From the IMG/VR virus record IMGVR_UViG_3300023284_000570, positions 1-35,853 of that record: a stretch of DNA of 35,853 nt. One strand, 5' to 3'. The DNA is from a virus. The position numbers were made by a program, and so were the translations under genes. Position 1 is the stretch's first letter, and every line of letters begins with the position of its first letter. Below the pieces are notes generated by a model that ran no database searches, was not told the origin of the DNA, and saw only the letters and a list, made by a program, of their open reading frames with translations. Shown piece after piece: positions 9,759-30,061 of this stretch.

Positions 9759-12071
9759 CTAAGTAAATGCCGGATTGGCCGGGGCTATTCGTTGCAGTCT
9801 CGCCTGTGTTCTTTTGTTGGTGGGCGTGAGGCCTTCCTCTACCGCTTCGGTCACATGGATAAGAACCTTCTGGCAGCGGCAATTGAAATCATTGAGCGGG
9901 GCCATGGTATCCCATACGGGGTCATCCGGGGCAGCCATGAATCCATCCCACACCGCATGAGTCTCTCGGACATCTGCATCGCGCTGAGTCACTAGCTCGG
10001 CCAGTGGATATTCCTCTGGGCCAAATTCCTCAAACTGGGCATCGACTCCAGCGGTATACGCCTGCTGGGCGTTGGTCTGCCATACGGTTTCGAGGTGTGC
10101 CGATGAGCTGCTCCATTGATCGCCAACTCTCGCTGCAAAGTCTGTCACATCTTCTCCGGCATTCAGGCTCGCGGTAAATGCTTCCTGCACCTTTCGCACG
10201 GTAGAGGCATCGGCACCGCCCGCAAACGAGAAGGCCTCGCGCCTGGCGGCTGACTCCATCTGGTTGAATGTCGCGTCGGTTACAGCAGAGCGGTCTTTGA
10301 ATATCTCGATCAGCTTGCCGTATGGGGAAGTCAGAATCTCCTCACGACTCAAGCGGGCCAGCTCCTGAAATTCCTCGACCTCGCCAAGCCGGTCCTGAGT
10401 TTCAACAGTGTGGGCACGAGCCATCAGGTCGAACAGGAGTTTGGTTTCTGTGACTAGGTCTTCAATCTTTTTTACACGCTGCCCCTTGTCGTCTCCGGGT
10501 ATTCTGGCTGATAGCTGCTCGCGCGTCTGGACATTGCCTAGCCTTGCCTCTGCGGCTTTTACCTGCTCATCCTTGAGCTTAGTCCCCTCGATATTGGCCT
10601 TATCTATCAGGTCAAAATACTCATCGAGTTGGCGCTCGCCACGCTTACGGCTTGGTCTTTCTGGATTTGGTTCGGCAAATGTTTCCTTCTTGTCGTCATC
10701 CTCGTGGCTGGAGTTGTGGCTACTCTCTAGTTGATCCAGAGGAATGGCTATCTCATCAGGGTCGACCCCATCCGGTAACGGCTTGTCGTATTTGCCTAGC
10801 AGGTAACCCTTGGTCATCGGTACGCCCATAGCCTGCAGCGTTTCGTCTTCCTTGATCTCGGCCTCGGAGGTCTTGATCATCTCGGTATTGCCGACCAGCT
10901 TTGGGTATCTTTCCTGCTCTCCGAAGTTGATTATAATCGCCCACTTGACTATCTGGTCACTCCAGGTTTCGTCCAGGTTCTCGGATATCTTGACGATTAT
11001 CATATCCTCGCCGCTCATGTGGACATTGCCCAGGGCCAGAGAGCCAGTCCTGTCACCTTCGCCGCTAGTGAGCGTGGAGCCAAGGCCAGAGGTAGTCATT
11101 TGCCTGTCAGCATATTTGCGGCGGCGCTCCCAGTGAGTCTCACCGCCGCGAGTAACAGCGCCTTCAATGATTTCAATTTCCCAGGTATCTGGCGTGGCAA
11201 TCAGATTGGAGCCCTGTATCCCCTTGAGGGTTTCGATTATATTCTTGAGTTTGCTTCTAGTCTCAACATCGGTCGCGCCCGGTTTCGTCTTGCCCCAGAT
11301 AGTTCCAAAGCCGAGCTTGTCGAGGGCCACCATTTCGCCCGGTGCCATCTTGAGCTTCACCCATGCCTGTGAATGGAAGAGTCGTGCGAGAGCTTCCCCC
11401 CATGGATTATTGGTCGGGCCGAATGACATGCGCATGAATTTGCCGGGGAACAGATCGTCCATGTTGTTGAACTGGTTGGCCACGAAATTCTGATTGGGGC
11501 TATAGAGTAAGTCGTGCGTGGTGATGTCGAATGAGAAATAGTTCTGGTCACGCTTCATCAGGAAGATTGGAACGAATACCTGCATGCCCTCCCAAGTAGC
11601 TGGCCCCCACATAATCTCCTCGACTGAATAGCCCAGGAAGTCGGCCTCAAGCATGTCCTCCCACACCTGTTTCAGCTTGGGGATATTGGCCATCCATGCG
11701 CTGGTAAATCGTGCTAGGCGTTCGTCGTTCTCGTCTGGGCCATCCTTGCCAACGGTCGAGGGAACTATTTTTCTATCAAGGGCTAGCGGCCTGTCCTTAC
11801 GCCTGCGGACTATAGTCTGCTGGGTTTGATCCTTCTCCAGAATGTCGCGATAGTAATCAAGGCCGAGCGCACCCGCCTCACGAATGAGCACGCGGTCGGG
11901 GTTCTGGCCTGTCTGGGCTGTCACCCATGGGCGTAGACTGCGGTCAACCTTCGGGCCTGATACTGCCGACATGTAGACACCACGGTCAATCTTGCCAGCG
12001 TCAAAGCCCTCGCCAAATGCCTCGTCGTATTCAGTCTGGGTGCGAAGTCCTAATTTATTCAGTATGCCCAT
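9759..12071 (-). CDS. Portal protein (DUF935, Mu gp29-like) fused to a MuF/SPP1 gp7-like domain
   Basis: 770 residues, longer than either family alone. Residues 1-460 resemble DUF935 portals (KDRPLALDRKIVPST, DFLGYSVEEIMWGPATWEG, NPWGEALARLFHSQAWVKLK, SGEDMIIVKISENLDETWSD, QAMGVPMTKGYLLGKYDKPLP). Residues ~640-740 form a MuF domain: HLETVWQTNAQQAYTAGVDA, RDADVRETHAVWDGFMAAPDD and the typical ending PLNDFNCRCQKVLIH (residues ~727-740). In Mu these are separate genes 29 and 30. Here one frame covers both, joined by a charged linker. The portal ring admits DNA, and MuF proteins help in head assembly and may enter the cell with DNA. There is no strong ribosome site before the ATG; AGGCGAT lies further upstream. 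Confidence 0.85.
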   Translation of the reverse strand: MGILNKLGLRTQTEYDEAFGEGFDAGKIDRGVYMSAVSGPKVDRSLRPWVTAQTGQNPDRVLIREAGALGLDYYRDILEKDQTQQTIVRRRKDRPLALDRKIVPSTVGKDGPDENDERLARFTSAWMANIPKLKQVWEDMLEADFLGYSVEEIMWGPATWEGMQVFVPIFLMKRDQNYFSFDITTHDLLYSPNQNFVANQFNNMDDLFPGKFMRMSFGPTNNPWGEALARLFHSQAWVKLKMAPGEMVALDKLGFGTIWGKTKPGATDVETRSKLKNIIETLKGIQGSNLIATPDTWEIEIIEGAVTRGGETHWERRRKYADRQMTTSGLGSTLTSGEGDRTGSLALGNVHMSGEDMIIVKISENLDETWSDQIVKWAIIINFGEQERYPKLVGNTEMIKTSEAEIKEDETLQAMGVPMTKGYLLGKYDKPLPDGVDPDEIAIPLDQLESSHNSSHEDDDKKETFAEPNPERPSRKRGERQLDEYFDLIDKANIEGTKLKDEQVKAAEARLGNVQTREQLSARIPGDDKGQRVKKIEDLVTETKLLFDLMARAHTVETQDRLGEVEEFQELARLSREEILTSPYGKLIEIFKDRSAVTDATFNQMESAARREAFSFAGGADASTVRKVQEAFTASLNAGEDVTDFAARVGDQWSSSSAHLETVWQTNAQQAYTAGVDAQFEEFGPEEYPLAELVTQRDADVRETHAVWDGFMAAPDDPVWDTMAPLNDFNCRCQKVLIHVTEAVEEGLTPTNKRTQARLQRIAPANPAFT

Positions 12072-12407: not shown

Positions 12408-13838
12408 CTAGATACTTATATTATCCCAGCCGTCGCGCTTACTCCATGCTTCCATTCCGGCCGGGTCTCCGATTTCGAGTATGCCCTCGCCTGCTGAACC
12501 CTCGGCTGCAATGCGAATGAATATCTCCATGGCGTCAAACATGTCATCGTACTTACCCTCGGGGAACATCAAGAGCTCCTGTTCCAGCGCGTCGTGCGCC
12601 CCATTCGGGCCGAACCATACCATGCCCTGCTCGAACACCGGCTCGAGTCTCTCTGCCCTGATTTCTTTGGAATACTGTTGATCGATTGGTTTGCATTTGG
12701 GTATCTCTGCCTGCATGTCCTCGACGAAATCTGCGGCGAACGCAACGGCCTCAATCCCTATCCTGATGGTTTGGGGATACTTTTCATTCAGTCGCCGTAT
12801 CAATGCGCGGCGACCTTCGAGGTTCAATCGTTCGTGACCTGCCTCAAGAATATAATAGTTTAGGTCGCGTGAGTCAATTATTCCTACGCACCATGCAGTG
12901 AAATCGCTCGTGATTGTCTTACCCATAGAGGTATCGACGCCGATGTAATATATCTGACATTCGTCGGGTGGCAGCTCTTTCCAGTACTTGAAATAGTCGG
13001 GCTTGAACTTTGAACCCTGCATGGCAGCCGTATCATTCTGGTATTGGCAGTTGAACTTTGTGGTGCCCATTCGGCGCTTCCGCTTGTGGAGTTCGTCGAG
13101 ATCGAAGCGCTCAGGGAATAGGGCGACCTCTTTCCCGTCCTCGTCGTAATTGATTGCCGAGTGAACGACATGTTGGTCTGCCAATGTGCCTTCGAGCAAC
13201 TTCCCATATTGATCCTGCCAATGATAACGGGTGCCTATCCATGTCATGGTTCCGCCAGGTTCAAGCGTACCCTCGACCGTCTGGGCTATCCATTCCTCCA
13301 ATTTGTCACGCTGGTATTCAGTCCGGGAATTCTCGAAGTCAACACAATCATCGAACAGGTGGTGCTCGTAATGCTGGCCGGTGATGGCCCCATATAGGCC
13401 GACCGCGATAATGCTGGACTCGCCGGCAGCCAGTCGTCCGCTGATTGTGATTTGATCATCGCGCCACATCTTGCCCGTCCGCCGTTGCTCCCGCATGCTC
13501 ACCGTATGGCCGGGTGCGAGATGAGGGAATAGCTTGACCAGCTCCCGGTTGTTCTCCATCTGCCCCTTGATATATCGGAGATTCTTTTTCGCCTCCTGTG
13601 ATGAGTTGGAAATCAGGCAGATGCGTGCATTGGGATTACAGGCCAATCGCCACAGGGCTTGATACTGACACATGACCGTGGACTTCCAGTGGCCTCGAGG
13701 GCCAAGGCCAAGGAATTCATCATGTATCGCCACGCCATTCGCCCACTCATAATGGAACTGCTGCAGCTCCGGGTTCATGAAGTTACAGAATCGAGCGAAC
13801 GAACCTGGGGCCGTGAGCTGTTGGGCGAGGGTGGTCAC
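12408..13838 (-). CDS. terL: Terminase large subunit (packaging ATPase and nuclease)
   Basis: 476 residues. It shows the classical ATPase features: Walker A GLGPRGHWKST (44-54), Walker B HHLFDDC (159-165) and a later coupling-type phrase TWIGTRYHW (199-207). The C-terminal RNase H-like nuclease has acidic residues in IGVDTSMG (D302), RIGIEAV (E363) and KYDDMFDAMEIF (D431-D435). It powers DNA packaging through the portal and cuts the concatemer. The start is GTG, overlapping the upstream stop (TAGTG), so it is coupled to the 77-residue gene before it. No alternative ATG fits better. Confidence 0.93.
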   Translation of the reverse strand: MTTLAQQLTAPGSFARFCNFMNPELQQFHYEWANGVAIHDEFLGLGPRGHWKSTVMCQYQALWRLACNPNARICLISNSSQEAKKNLRYIKGQMENNRELVKLFPHLAPGHTVSMREQRRTGKMWRDDQITISGRLAAGESSIIAVGLYGAITGQHYEHHLFDDCVDFENSRTEYQRDKLEEWIAQTVEGTLEPGGTMTWIGTRYHWQDQYGKLLEGTLADQHVVHSAINYDEDGKEVALFPERFDLDELHKRKRRMGTTKFNCQYQNDTAAMQGSKFKPDYFKYWKELPPDECQIYYIGVDTSMGKTITSDFTAWCVGIIDSRDLNYYILEAGHERLNLEGRRALIRRLNEKYPQTIRIGIEAVAFAADFVEDMQAEIPKCKPIDQQYSKEIRAERLEPVFEQGMVWFGPNGAHDALEQELLMFPEGKYDDMFDAMEIFIRIAAEGSAGEGILEIGDPAGMEAWSKRDGWDNISI

Positions 13839-17663: not shown

Positions 17664-17693
17664 CGTATAGGACCTGTGCATAACTTTTGTCAA
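17664..17693 (-). promoter_or_regulatory. Leftward promoter for rusA
   Basis: On the leftward strand a perfect -35 TTGACA (17693-17688) and TATACG (17669-17664) with an 18-base spacer. Operator-like site 1 (17695-17711) abuts the -35 box. The transcript would begin near 17657, about 100 bases before rusA, and its 5' end could form a hairpin (CAAGCC/GGCTTG, 17629-17648). Confidence 0.6.
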
Positions 17694-17694
17694 G

Positions 17695-17711
17695 TGTCGC
17701 AAAACGCCACA
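17695..17711 (+). promoter_or_regulatory. Operator-like site 1
   Basis: TGTCGCAAAACGCCACA, a 17-bp imperfect palindrome with half-site TGTSGCA. It lies one base upstream of the rusA promoter -35 box. Member of a family of four in this intergenic region. Confidence 0.6.
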
Positions 17712-17775
17712 CCCCACATGCAGCAGGAATATTGCACACGCTAATACGATTCCACTAGGTCTTGTGGGGTGTGGC
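17706..17775. repeat. 13-bp perfect inverted repeat in the control region
   Basis: GCCACACCCCACA (17706-17718) and its exact reverse complement TGTGGGGTGTGGC (17763-17775), 44 bases apart. It overlaps operator sites 1 and 2 and could form a cruciform or hairpin. A replication origin is another possible role. Confidence 0.7.
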
Positions 17776-17786
17776 AAATTGTCGCA
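17770..17786 (+). promoter_or_regulatory. Operator-like site 2
   Basis: TGTGGCAAATTGTCGCA, 17 bp, same family as site 1; start-to-start distance 75 bases from site 1. Confidence 0.6.
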
Positions 17787-17839
17787 CCTGTGATTCGGGT
17801 GCTTATTCCTTGTGCATAGTGGCGAGAATTTCAGGGTGG

Positions 17840-17856
17840 TGTGGCGTATTGTCGCA
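17840..17856 (+). promoter_or_regulatory. Operator-like site 3
   Basis: TGTGGCGTATTGTCGCA, 17 bp, differing from site 2 at only two positions; 70 bases from site 2. Confidence 0.6.
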
Positions 17857-17937
17857 CACTGGTAGTCTCTCTGGTCTATGCCTGCCTGTAGATAGCCGCT
17901 CAGTCGTCCGCAATCATCGGACAATTGGATTTATAAC

Positions 17938-17954
17938 TGTCGCATATATCGACA
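17938..17954 (+). promoter_or_regulatory. Operator-like site 4
   Basis: TGTCGCATATATCGACA, 17 bp, with perfect TGTCG/CGACA arms; 98 bases from site 3 and about 50 bases upstream of the rightward promoter. Confidence 0.6.
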
Positions 17955-18005
17955 CATTCTCGCATGCCTAGCAACGACGGGCAAATAAATATTCCAATAT
18001 TGCCC

Positions 18006-28448: not shown

Positions 28449-28814
28449 CTACGGTTGGACTCGAACAGGGATTGCTGGCCAGCGCGGCGCTATAGGTGTG
28501 GAACTGGCAGGGGTTTTAGGGTTATCCGCCTCGCATTTCGAGACATCCTCCCCGCGCAACATGCAAAGGCACTGGCCGAGTTCTGCCGCTGAATTGCTGA
28601 GGTCGCCCTGCAGCTCATTCCAGTGACCTGGGGATACTACATACCAGCCATCCAGCCGTTCGGTATCAGTCTTCTTATCGAGGACATGAACGACCCTGCT
28701 ATCAGGTACGATTACGACGCTTGGCTTTTTCGAACGCGAGCTGTGCAGACAGCCTTGTGCGGTAGCTATTACCAACGTGAGCAAGAGCAGATAACTGAGG
28801 GCCATCCTCGTCAC
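28449..28814 (-). CDS. Outer-membrane spanin (lipoprotein) candidate
   Basis: 121 residues from GTG 28814, which has GAGG 6 bases upstream; ATG 28805 is the alternative but its GAGG is adjacent. The N-terminus VTRMALSYLLLLTLVIATAQGC is a lipoprotein signal peptide ending in a cysteine (lipobox A-Q-G-C). The mature part (HSSRSKKPSVVIVPDSRVVH, then GWYVVSPGHWNELQGDLSNS and a Pro-rich end) fits an o-spanin. The gene overlaps the end of the inner-membrane spanin candidate in another frame by 113 bases, as lambda Rz1 does with Rz. It would fuse the inner and outer membranes in the last step of lysis. Confidence 0.68.
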   Translation of the reverse strand: MTRMALSYLLLLTLVIATAQGCLHSSRSKKPSVVIVPDSRVVHVLDKKTDTERLDGWYVVSPGHWNELQGDLSNSAAELGQCLCMLRGEDVSKCEADNPKTPASSTPIAPRWPAIPVRVQP

Positions 28815-28980
28815 GGATAGCCTCGGCCAAGTCAGCCTTTTCCTCCCACCTTTTACCGTGGGGAGTGAGGCGCTCCTCTTCAAGTTGGTCACGCCGAGTC
28901 TGCTTATCCTTGAGCCAGCCGAATAGAATTGGCAGAGCTTTGAGCGCTGCCACCAGTATCGCGAAAATAGATGCCGCCAC
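28702..28980 (-). CDS. Inner-membrane spanin candidate
   Basis: 92 residues from GTG 28980 (GAGGA about 10 bases upstream, overlapping the holin stop). An N-terminal membrane segment (ASIFAILVAALKALPILFGW) is followed by a charged helical region (KDKQTRRDQLEEERLTPHGK and KADLAEAIRDED). This fits an i-spanin (Rz-like), although it is shorter than Rz. The lipoprotein gene starts inside it. Confidence 0.6.
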   Translation of the reverse strand: MAASIFAILVAALKALPILFGWLKDKQTRRDQLEEERLTPHGKRWEEKADLAEAIRDEDGPQLSALAHVGNSYRTRLSAQLAFEKAKRRNRT

Positions 28981-28986
28981 AATGGA

Positions 28987-29211
28987 CTATTCCTCGTCGT
29001 CAGCTATAGCGCGAGGGCCAGCGCCAGACGATGGCTTCAAAAAGGACACGCTTTCAAGAAAGCCCCTGACCTTATTCACGATCTCGTCATCGCGTGGTTC
29101 TGGTGTGGCTGCTACCCATAGAGTAGCGAAGCCCACAAGTACTGTCACAATGGTGGTCAATCCAGCCCATAACAATTCTGAGTTTGCCAATAAAAACTGT
29201 ATAATTTCCAT
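28987..29211 (-). CDS. Holin candidate
   Basis: 74 residues with one membrane segment (LLWAGLTTIVTVLVGFATLW, about 13-32), then a polar tail (TPEPRDDEIVNKVRGFLESV). Size and position between the endolysin and the spanins fit a single-span holin that lets endolysin or the proton gradient through the membrane. The ribosome site is AAGAAGGTGACGAG before the ATG. The membrane gene at 29713-30003 is a rival holin. Confidence 0.6.
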   Translation of the reverse strand: MEIIQFLLANSELLWAGLTTIVTVLVGFATLWVAATPEPRDDEIVNKVRGFLESVSFLKPSSGAGPRAIADDEE

Positions 29212-29226
29212 CTCGTCACCTTCTTT

Positions 29227-29676
29227 CTATTTGCCCCAAGGGGCTGTTGGTAAAAATGGGTCTACGTATCCGGCTATATTAGCGCGGCTTTTGATTGGCC
29301 GCACCTTCACGAAAGCATTGGCATCTGCGGCCGCTTCCTTGGTTGTTGTTTTACTGCCACCACCACTGGCTCCGATGCACAATTCCTCGTTCAAACAGAA
29401 TTCAATGTGGATGATTTTTCCTGTATTACCGTTTTGATAAAACACAAGGCAGCCATCGTAAGGCTCCTGCACCAGACAGTCCTGGTAGTGGTTCCACAAT
29501 CCCGAGGCTGCCCTGTCCCCCCTGCGAGCCAATGCCCCGACTGACTTCAAAACTTCCTGCACCATGCCAGAGCAATCGAAACCGTCGATAGTATCATCAC
29601 CACCCCACTTGTAGGGCTGGCCATACATTTGCCAAGCGATATGCCTGGCTATTTTCATTAGTCGCTGTCTGTTCAT
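29227..29676 (-). CDS. NlpC/P60 peptidase, probable endolysin
   Basis: 149 residues. The catalytic core is clear: YKWGGDDTIDGFDCSGMVQE (22-41) with Cys 35, and GKIIHIEFCLNE (86-97) with His 90. NlpC/P60 enzymes cut peptide bonds in the cell wall. It has no signal peptide or wall-binding domain. Lying before holin and spanin candidates, it is probably the endolysin, although a tail-associated wall-opening role is possible because siphoviruses often keep such an enzyme after the tail tip genes. The ribosome site is AAAGGCGACAT before the ATG. Confidence 0.85.
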   Translation of the reverse strand: MNRQRLMKIARHIAWQMYGQPYKWGGDDTIDGFDCSGMVQEVLKSVGALARRGDRAASGLWNHYQDCLVQEPYDGCLVFYQNGNTGKIIHIEFCLNEELCIGASGGGSKTTTKEAAADANAFVKVRPIKSRANIAGYVDPFLPTAPWGK

Positions 29677-29694
29677 AATGTCGCCTTTCTGTGA

Positions 29695-29710
29695 TGTTCC
29701 ACGTGAAACT
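29695..29710 (-). promoter_or_regulatory. parS-like site (bacterial chromosome partition centromere)
   Basis: The + strand reads TGTTCCACGTGAAACT. This equals the well-known Bacillus subtilis parS sequence at 15 of 16 positions (only the last base differs) and contains the CACGTG core shared by bacterial parS sites. It fits inside the 36-base gap between the membrane protein and the endolysin genes. No parA or parB gene is visible. Confidence 0.6.
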
Positions 29711-29712
29711 AT

Positions 29713-30003
29713 TTATCGCTGTCGCATTTCGCGACGGATGTTGCCGAGCTCCCTGAGTATCGCCTCGTTGGTTGCCTTGATGCCCGCCACATCCTCGCTC
29801 ATATTGTGTACCTTCTCCATGTCCTTACCGTGAGCAATGACTATCGCGTCCATTCGCTCGCTCTGTGAATGTTCAAGTCTTTCATGGTCGCTCTTGTAGG
29901 CCTCCAGTGTTTGGGGGCTGACGAAAACTCCTGAAAACATGCCATACACAATCATGGTGATTAGTATTCCTGCGATGGCGATTCCTATTTTCAGGTTTTT
30001 CAT
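29713..30003 (-). CDS. Membrane protein with cytoplasmic or periplasmic coiled coil
   Basis: 96 residues from ATG 30003, which has GAGGAG just upstream; an ATG at 30045 has only a weak site. One membrane segment (IGIAIAGILITMIVYGMFSG, about 5-24) and a long helical region (EAYKSDHERLEHSQSERMDA and AILRELGNIRREMRQ). It could be a holin, an antiholin or a lysis accessory protein. Its position between the tail tip and endolysin genes supports a lysis role. Confidence 0.6.
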   Translation of the reverse strand: MKNLKIGIAIAGILITMIVYGMFSGVFVSPQTLEAYKSDHERLEHSQSERMDAIVIAHGKDMEKVHNMSEDVAGIKATNEAILRELGNIRREMRQR

Positions 30004-30061
30004 TTGCTCCTCGCCGTAGACTTTAGTGGTCTCCGGGTTTGTCATTTCTCTATACTAACAG

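Follow-up and report, generated by a model that had tools for sequence, protein, structure and literature searches.

What is a sequence that closely resembles a bacterial parS site doing between two genes of a phage in which no partition genes were found? The question is raised by IMG/VR record IMGVR_UViG_3300023284_000570, a tailed phage analysed over its full 35,853 nt (35.9 kb, hereafter the window), with the following features:

29695..29710, + strand: parS-like site TGTTCCACGTGAAACT, identical to the consensus TGTTNCACGTGAAACA at 15 of 16 positions
29677..29712: intergenic gap of 36 bp, holding the site and, ahead of the ATG at 29676, the Shine-Dalgarno GAAAGG
29227..29676, - strand: NlpC/P60 hydrolase of 149 aa, downstream of the site (PF00877, 7.5e-11; phrog_329, minor tail protein, 2e-11)
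29713..30045, - strand: protein of 110 aa, upstream of the site, with one hydrophobic segment and then a polar C-terminal part
28987..29211, - strand: protein of 74 aa with one hydrophobic segment (phrog_9685, unknown function)
28449..28982, - strand: overlapping ORFs, one with a lipoprotein-like signal, no family match
28702-28980, - strand: ORF within this overlap, with an N-terminal hydrophobic segment, no family match
12408-13838, - strand: terminase large subunit (phrog_38)
9759-12071, - strand: portal (phrog_113)

The site matches the parS consensus with its palindromic core intact: the single mismatch falls on the outermost base, and the 14-bp core GTTCCACGTGAAAC is perfect, with two complete half-sites, GTTCCAC and GTTTCAC, facing each other (on the coding strand, the site reads AGTTTCACGTGGAACA). 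A preliminary description of this DNA had reported a 15/16 match with a CACGTG core, and the sequence is exactly as stated there; the gene coordinates also bear out its placement in a 36-bp gap between stop and start signals, namely the stop codon of 30045..29713 (- strand) and the Shine-Dalgarno of 29676..29227 (- strand). Other gaps of the late operon mostly measure 16 bp or less, the exceptions being one gap of 25 bp and a pair of 103-bp gaps around the capsid genes, and about 95% of the phage genome is coding. The 36-bp gap holds no terminator and no convincing promoter, and no second parS-like copy occurs within three mismatches anywhere in the window. An RNA hairpin or terminator was considered for the palindrome and rejected, the fold being no stronger than that of shuffled sequences (z = 0.64) and no terminator being present.

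Family searches also detected capsid protease, scaffold and major capsid genes, together with a DnaB helicase and exonucleases encoded on the + strand. Another block of leftward genes, the second (35775-28449), encodes a protein of 1110 aa (a probable tail protein), the 110-aa protein, the NlpC/P60 hydrolase and small membrane-type proteins, and, provided that the genome closes into a circle, the gene order suggests one late operon with a lysis module at its end; a search for terminal repeats in the window found none. The earlier label of "lysis region" is made plausible by the PF00877 match of the NlpC/P60 protein and left unproven by its match to phrog_329, a minor tail protein: judged from its sequence, the product may be an endolysin or a tail-associated peptidase. 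Around it, the 74-aa protein may be holin-like, the overlapping ORFs of 28449..28982 may form a spanin-like pair, and the 110-aa protein, for which neither family match nor relatives were found, is probably coiled in its C-terminal part. Neither integrase nor ParA nor ParB was seen among the ORFs scanned in the window, and a PF02195 search of the whole record returned no ParB domain, in agreement with the earlier statement that parA and parB are lacking; a phage-encoded ParB as reader of the site was rejected on this result. No DNA-level relatives of the window were found among cultured phages. Two other repeated motifs were observed. An imperfect palindrome of the GTGTGGCAAATTGTCGCAC type recurs three to four times at 17693-17955, where the leftward and rightward gene blocks diverge, and its copies are probably operators of a phage regulator. 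GGCGACA, present in 11 copies in the window (about 5 expected), stands just before the start codons of several leftward genes (29685, 17568, 16735 and 7071, - strand), where it accompanies the Shine-Dalgarno AGGAGGCGACA or AAAGGCGACA.

Could a host ParB read such a site? The recognition of parS-type sites by ParB, and its loading there, are established in other systems. In Pseudomonas aeruginosa, the heptamers most bound by ParB are GTTCCAC and GTTTCAC (PMC10419367), and the window site consists of one of each; moreover, all 17 ParBs tested in another study prefer the parS consensus over the Noc site (PMC7383237). From these two preferences, binding by almost any chromosomal ParB would be expected. 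The 14-bp core and consensus of chromosomal parS (ParABS) are identical to those of the window, the difference being that the window's copy is single and lies on a phage genome in which no parA or parB was found.

The closest precedent is phi29 (NC_011048), a lytic phage without ParB that carries host-type parS sites: four perfect copies of TGTTTCACGTGGAACA, at 10445, 15903, 17243 and 18760, spread over several places, one of them inside the endolysin gene. Entrapment of phi29 DNA in spores was reportedly attributed to these parS sites by Meijer and colleagues in 2005. The phi29 sequence is one base off the window's coding strand (15/16). According to a later paper (PMC9437464, with reference to Meijer et al. 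2005), phi29 DNA is drawn into spores by Spo0J, the ParB of its Bacillus host. The window shares with phi29-type parS the lack of a parB of its own, whereas several copies, a feature that is not strictly defining, are not found: the window has one copy, against four perfect ones in phi29, a phage whose host sporulates. The window phage is also a tailed phage of another kind, with a phrog_38 terminase and a phrog_113 portal. A second precedent comes from the mobile element SGI1, whose parS-like sites hijack the ParABS of IncC plasmids and, when multiplied by replication, disturb partition of the helper plasmid (PMC10954446). It resembles the window in using the ParB of another replicon through its own centromere copies, and differs in that this ParB is plasmid-encoded, the parS is of another type and there are two copies. 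The ParABS systems of phages and plasmid-prophages likewise partition phage DNA, but with their own ParA and ParB, neither of which was found in the window.

Is the resemblance a matter of chance? Under Markov models, matches as good as the window site (at most one mismatch, either strand) are expected 0.0008-0.0016 times per window, and the 14-bp core GTTYCACGTGRAAC 1.1e-4 to 2.9e-4 times. The figure of 7e-5 given in the preliminary description holds for one fixed 15-mer, and rises to about 0.001 per window once equally good sequences are counted. A single match therefore proves little, as this expectation is not small over a large scan, and several chance sites would be expected over thousands of windows. 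A functionless random 15/16 match, found because many windows were inspected, is thus an explanation with some claim to attention, all the more as the site is single and the two closest NlpC relatives lack it. Its intergenic position, in a genome that is about 95% coding, speaks against this, as do counts across the viral collection.

IMG/VR was scanned for the exact 16-mer TGTTCCACGTGAAACT, with an arm-shuffled (TTGTCCACGTGAACAT) and a core-swapped (TGTTCCAGCTGAAACT) version as controls. The 16-mer occurs in at least 119 contigs, and the controls in 8 and 53 contigs, respectively, although under Markov models the site should be rarer than the core-swapped control (predicted ratio 0.23-0.63). 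With a following A, the full count is 43 contigs for the 16-mer, versus 11 of 53 for the core-swapped control, and distinct contexts number 27 versus 4; as 19 of the 119 contigs among the matches listed have this A, the total can be extrapolated to about 270 contigs. Under one gene-calling rule for site and control, 26 of 89 distinct contexts are intergenic for the site (among the matches listed), versus 1 of 35 for the control (Fisher one-sided p = 5e-4). The exact 16-mer is thus several-fold over-represented in viral contigs, and its share of intergenic copies is about 10 times that of the control 16-mer, so that most intergenic exact copies are not due to chance; this result holds across viral contigs and is not specific to the locus. 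It weighs against coincidence, which we consider unlikely for the window site. Some contamination of this excess by host DNA is likely, and part of it could come from misassigned or prophage contigs. A tRNA fragment was rejected as the source of the intergenic copies, those loci containing no tRNA genes.

Which genomes carry the site? A ParB match is absent from 47 of the 50 site-bearing records checked. Among 20 intergenic carriers, the largest ORFs encode a terminase, portal, tape measure, capsid protease or phage RNA polymerase in at least 12, hence many carriers are true phages and not host fragments. Most other carriers hold one copy only; extra parS-like sites, above chance, are present in 5 of 45 carrier records, and the reversed pattern gave none. 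One carrier recovered by the scan without prior selection, L015 (IMGVR_UViG_3300031760_000746, 18.9 kb), has eight parS-like sites, of which six are the perfect palindrome TGTTTCACGTGAAACA. One of its ORFs presumably encodes a phi29-type protein-primed DNA polymerase, and we take L015 to be a phi29-type phage genome. Taken together, the intergenic over-representation in phage sequences suggests that phages like that of the window borrow a host segregation protein, as phi29 does.

Further observations concern the arrangement of the site in these carriers. Clusters of two to three parS-like sites occur in L091 (a 65-kb record) and L042, records in which no ParB was found. Nine related phage contigs (L018, L032, L035, L043, L049, L090, L102, L103 and L105) keep both site and flanks, mostly between genes, the flanks shared in the L018-type family being GTGCAG-A-TGTTCCACGTGAAACT-GTTGTA; in L018, the site is upstream of terminase and portal. 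No cultured relatives were found for three of four parS-bearing contigs; the remaining one, L022, proved to be related to Pelagibacter phages. Where a terminase could be found, the site lies 0.4-3 kb upstream of its large subunit in 11 of 12 intergenic carriers (L018, L025, L042, L048, L051, L074, L077, L111, L120, L246 and L263) and in 6 of 13 others (L014, L021, L056, L079, L102 and L116), a count that is biased because the query terminases came from the same loci and the window; of six controls, one has a terminase within 3 kb, and another at 3.05 kb. The window site departs from this pattern.

As to relatives of the locus itself, the NlpC/P60 gene is common to 16 viral records (35-54% identity), none of which has the upstream 110-aa gene or the adjacent 1110-aa tail protein, and searches with the tail protein, the 110-aa protein or the terminase found no relative sharing both flanks. 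The two closest NlpC relatives, L121 and L122, are without such a site. Two other NlpC-sharing phage records carry a site within one mismatch elsewhere in the genome (CGTTACACGTGAAACA and TGTTACACATGAAACA), while simple arithmetic predicts about 0.05 over the roughly 575 kb of NlpC-sharing records; this comparison, made after the fact, is suggestive, and the contribution of L123 (CGTTACACGTGAAACA) is weakened because its site sits inside a gene. On the bacterial side, TGTTTCACGTGAAACA is present in the genomes or chromosomes of Zixiibacteriota, Calditrichaeota and Chitinivibrionales in which NlpC relatives lie.

Over-representation in the collection, the intergenic bias, the ParB-less carriers and the phi29 precedent make a genuine parS the most likely explanation: judged from sequence, the window site probably loads clamps of host ParB-CTP on the phage DNA, despite its single copy (four in phi29) and the lack of a site in L121 and L122. 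After infection, the host chromosomal ParB would bind the palindrome, load as a CTP-dependent clamp and slide onto the phage DNA beside it. Labelled in this way as if it were an origin region, the phage genome could then be handled by the host ParA (and possibly SMC), and thereby be kept near host origins, or be passed to a daughter or dormant cell when lysis is delayed; phi29 makes use of Spo0J in this manner in sporulating Bacillus. We infer that the host of this phage binds the site and that the phage benefits from it, phi29 being the one analogy for such a benefit. The preliminary description had proposed that the phage attracts host ParB, and the same four lines of evidence uphold the part of that proposal which makes the site a real parS; copy-number sensing, coupling to lysis and a decoy, also put forward there, found no support, and positioning of phage DNA as in phi29 is a more probable role than either the timing of lysis or a decoy.

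Would ParB bound in the gap instead act as a roadblock, tying expression of the upstream gene and of the NlpC/P60 gene to ParB? The site does follow a stop codon and precede the Shine-Dalgarno of what may be a lysis gene, and a study in P. aeruginosa reports repression by excess ParB of the promoters adjoining parS3 and parS4 (PMC5521831). Such control of lysis or late genes is nevertheless improbable, as the gap has no convincing promoter or terminator and many other carriers have the site near the terminase instead. In any case, phi29 shows that such sites need not lie near lysis genes, its own being spread over several places, the endolysin gene included. A decoy that titrates ParB and disturbs host segregation is more improbable still: copies would multiply as the phage DNA replicates, as with the SGI1 sites that upset helper plasmid partition (PMC10954446), but there is one site per genome, where many would be expected in a dedicated decoy. 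Finally, the likeness to parS could be superficial, the site being an RNA hairpin or the operator of a phage repressor. Its palindromic form and its position beside a ribosome-binding site would fit this reading, which can be given hardly any credence, as the phage has different operator-like repeats of its own at 17693-17955, the parS-like site has no second copy within three mismatches, and its fold does not exceed that of shuffles.

Host-type parS was already known in phi29, and what would be new is its occurrence in this phage. If the site is a genuine parS, phages without partition genes would position or retain their DNA by means of the clamp with which the host segregates its chromosome, and the carrier states of phages would be linked to the position of host origins and to ParB-CTP biology. 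The borrowing of host ParABS through a single intergenic parS may even be widespread in tailed phages of many bacteria, beyond phi29 and spore-formers, often with the site 0.4-3 kb upstream of the terminase large subunit, the window being an instance located elsewhere; this generalization is tentative, with the odds somewhat against it. If it holds, it is the more interesting result, as phi29 would then be joined by many tailed phages, for which the collection counts provide a ready list of candidates.
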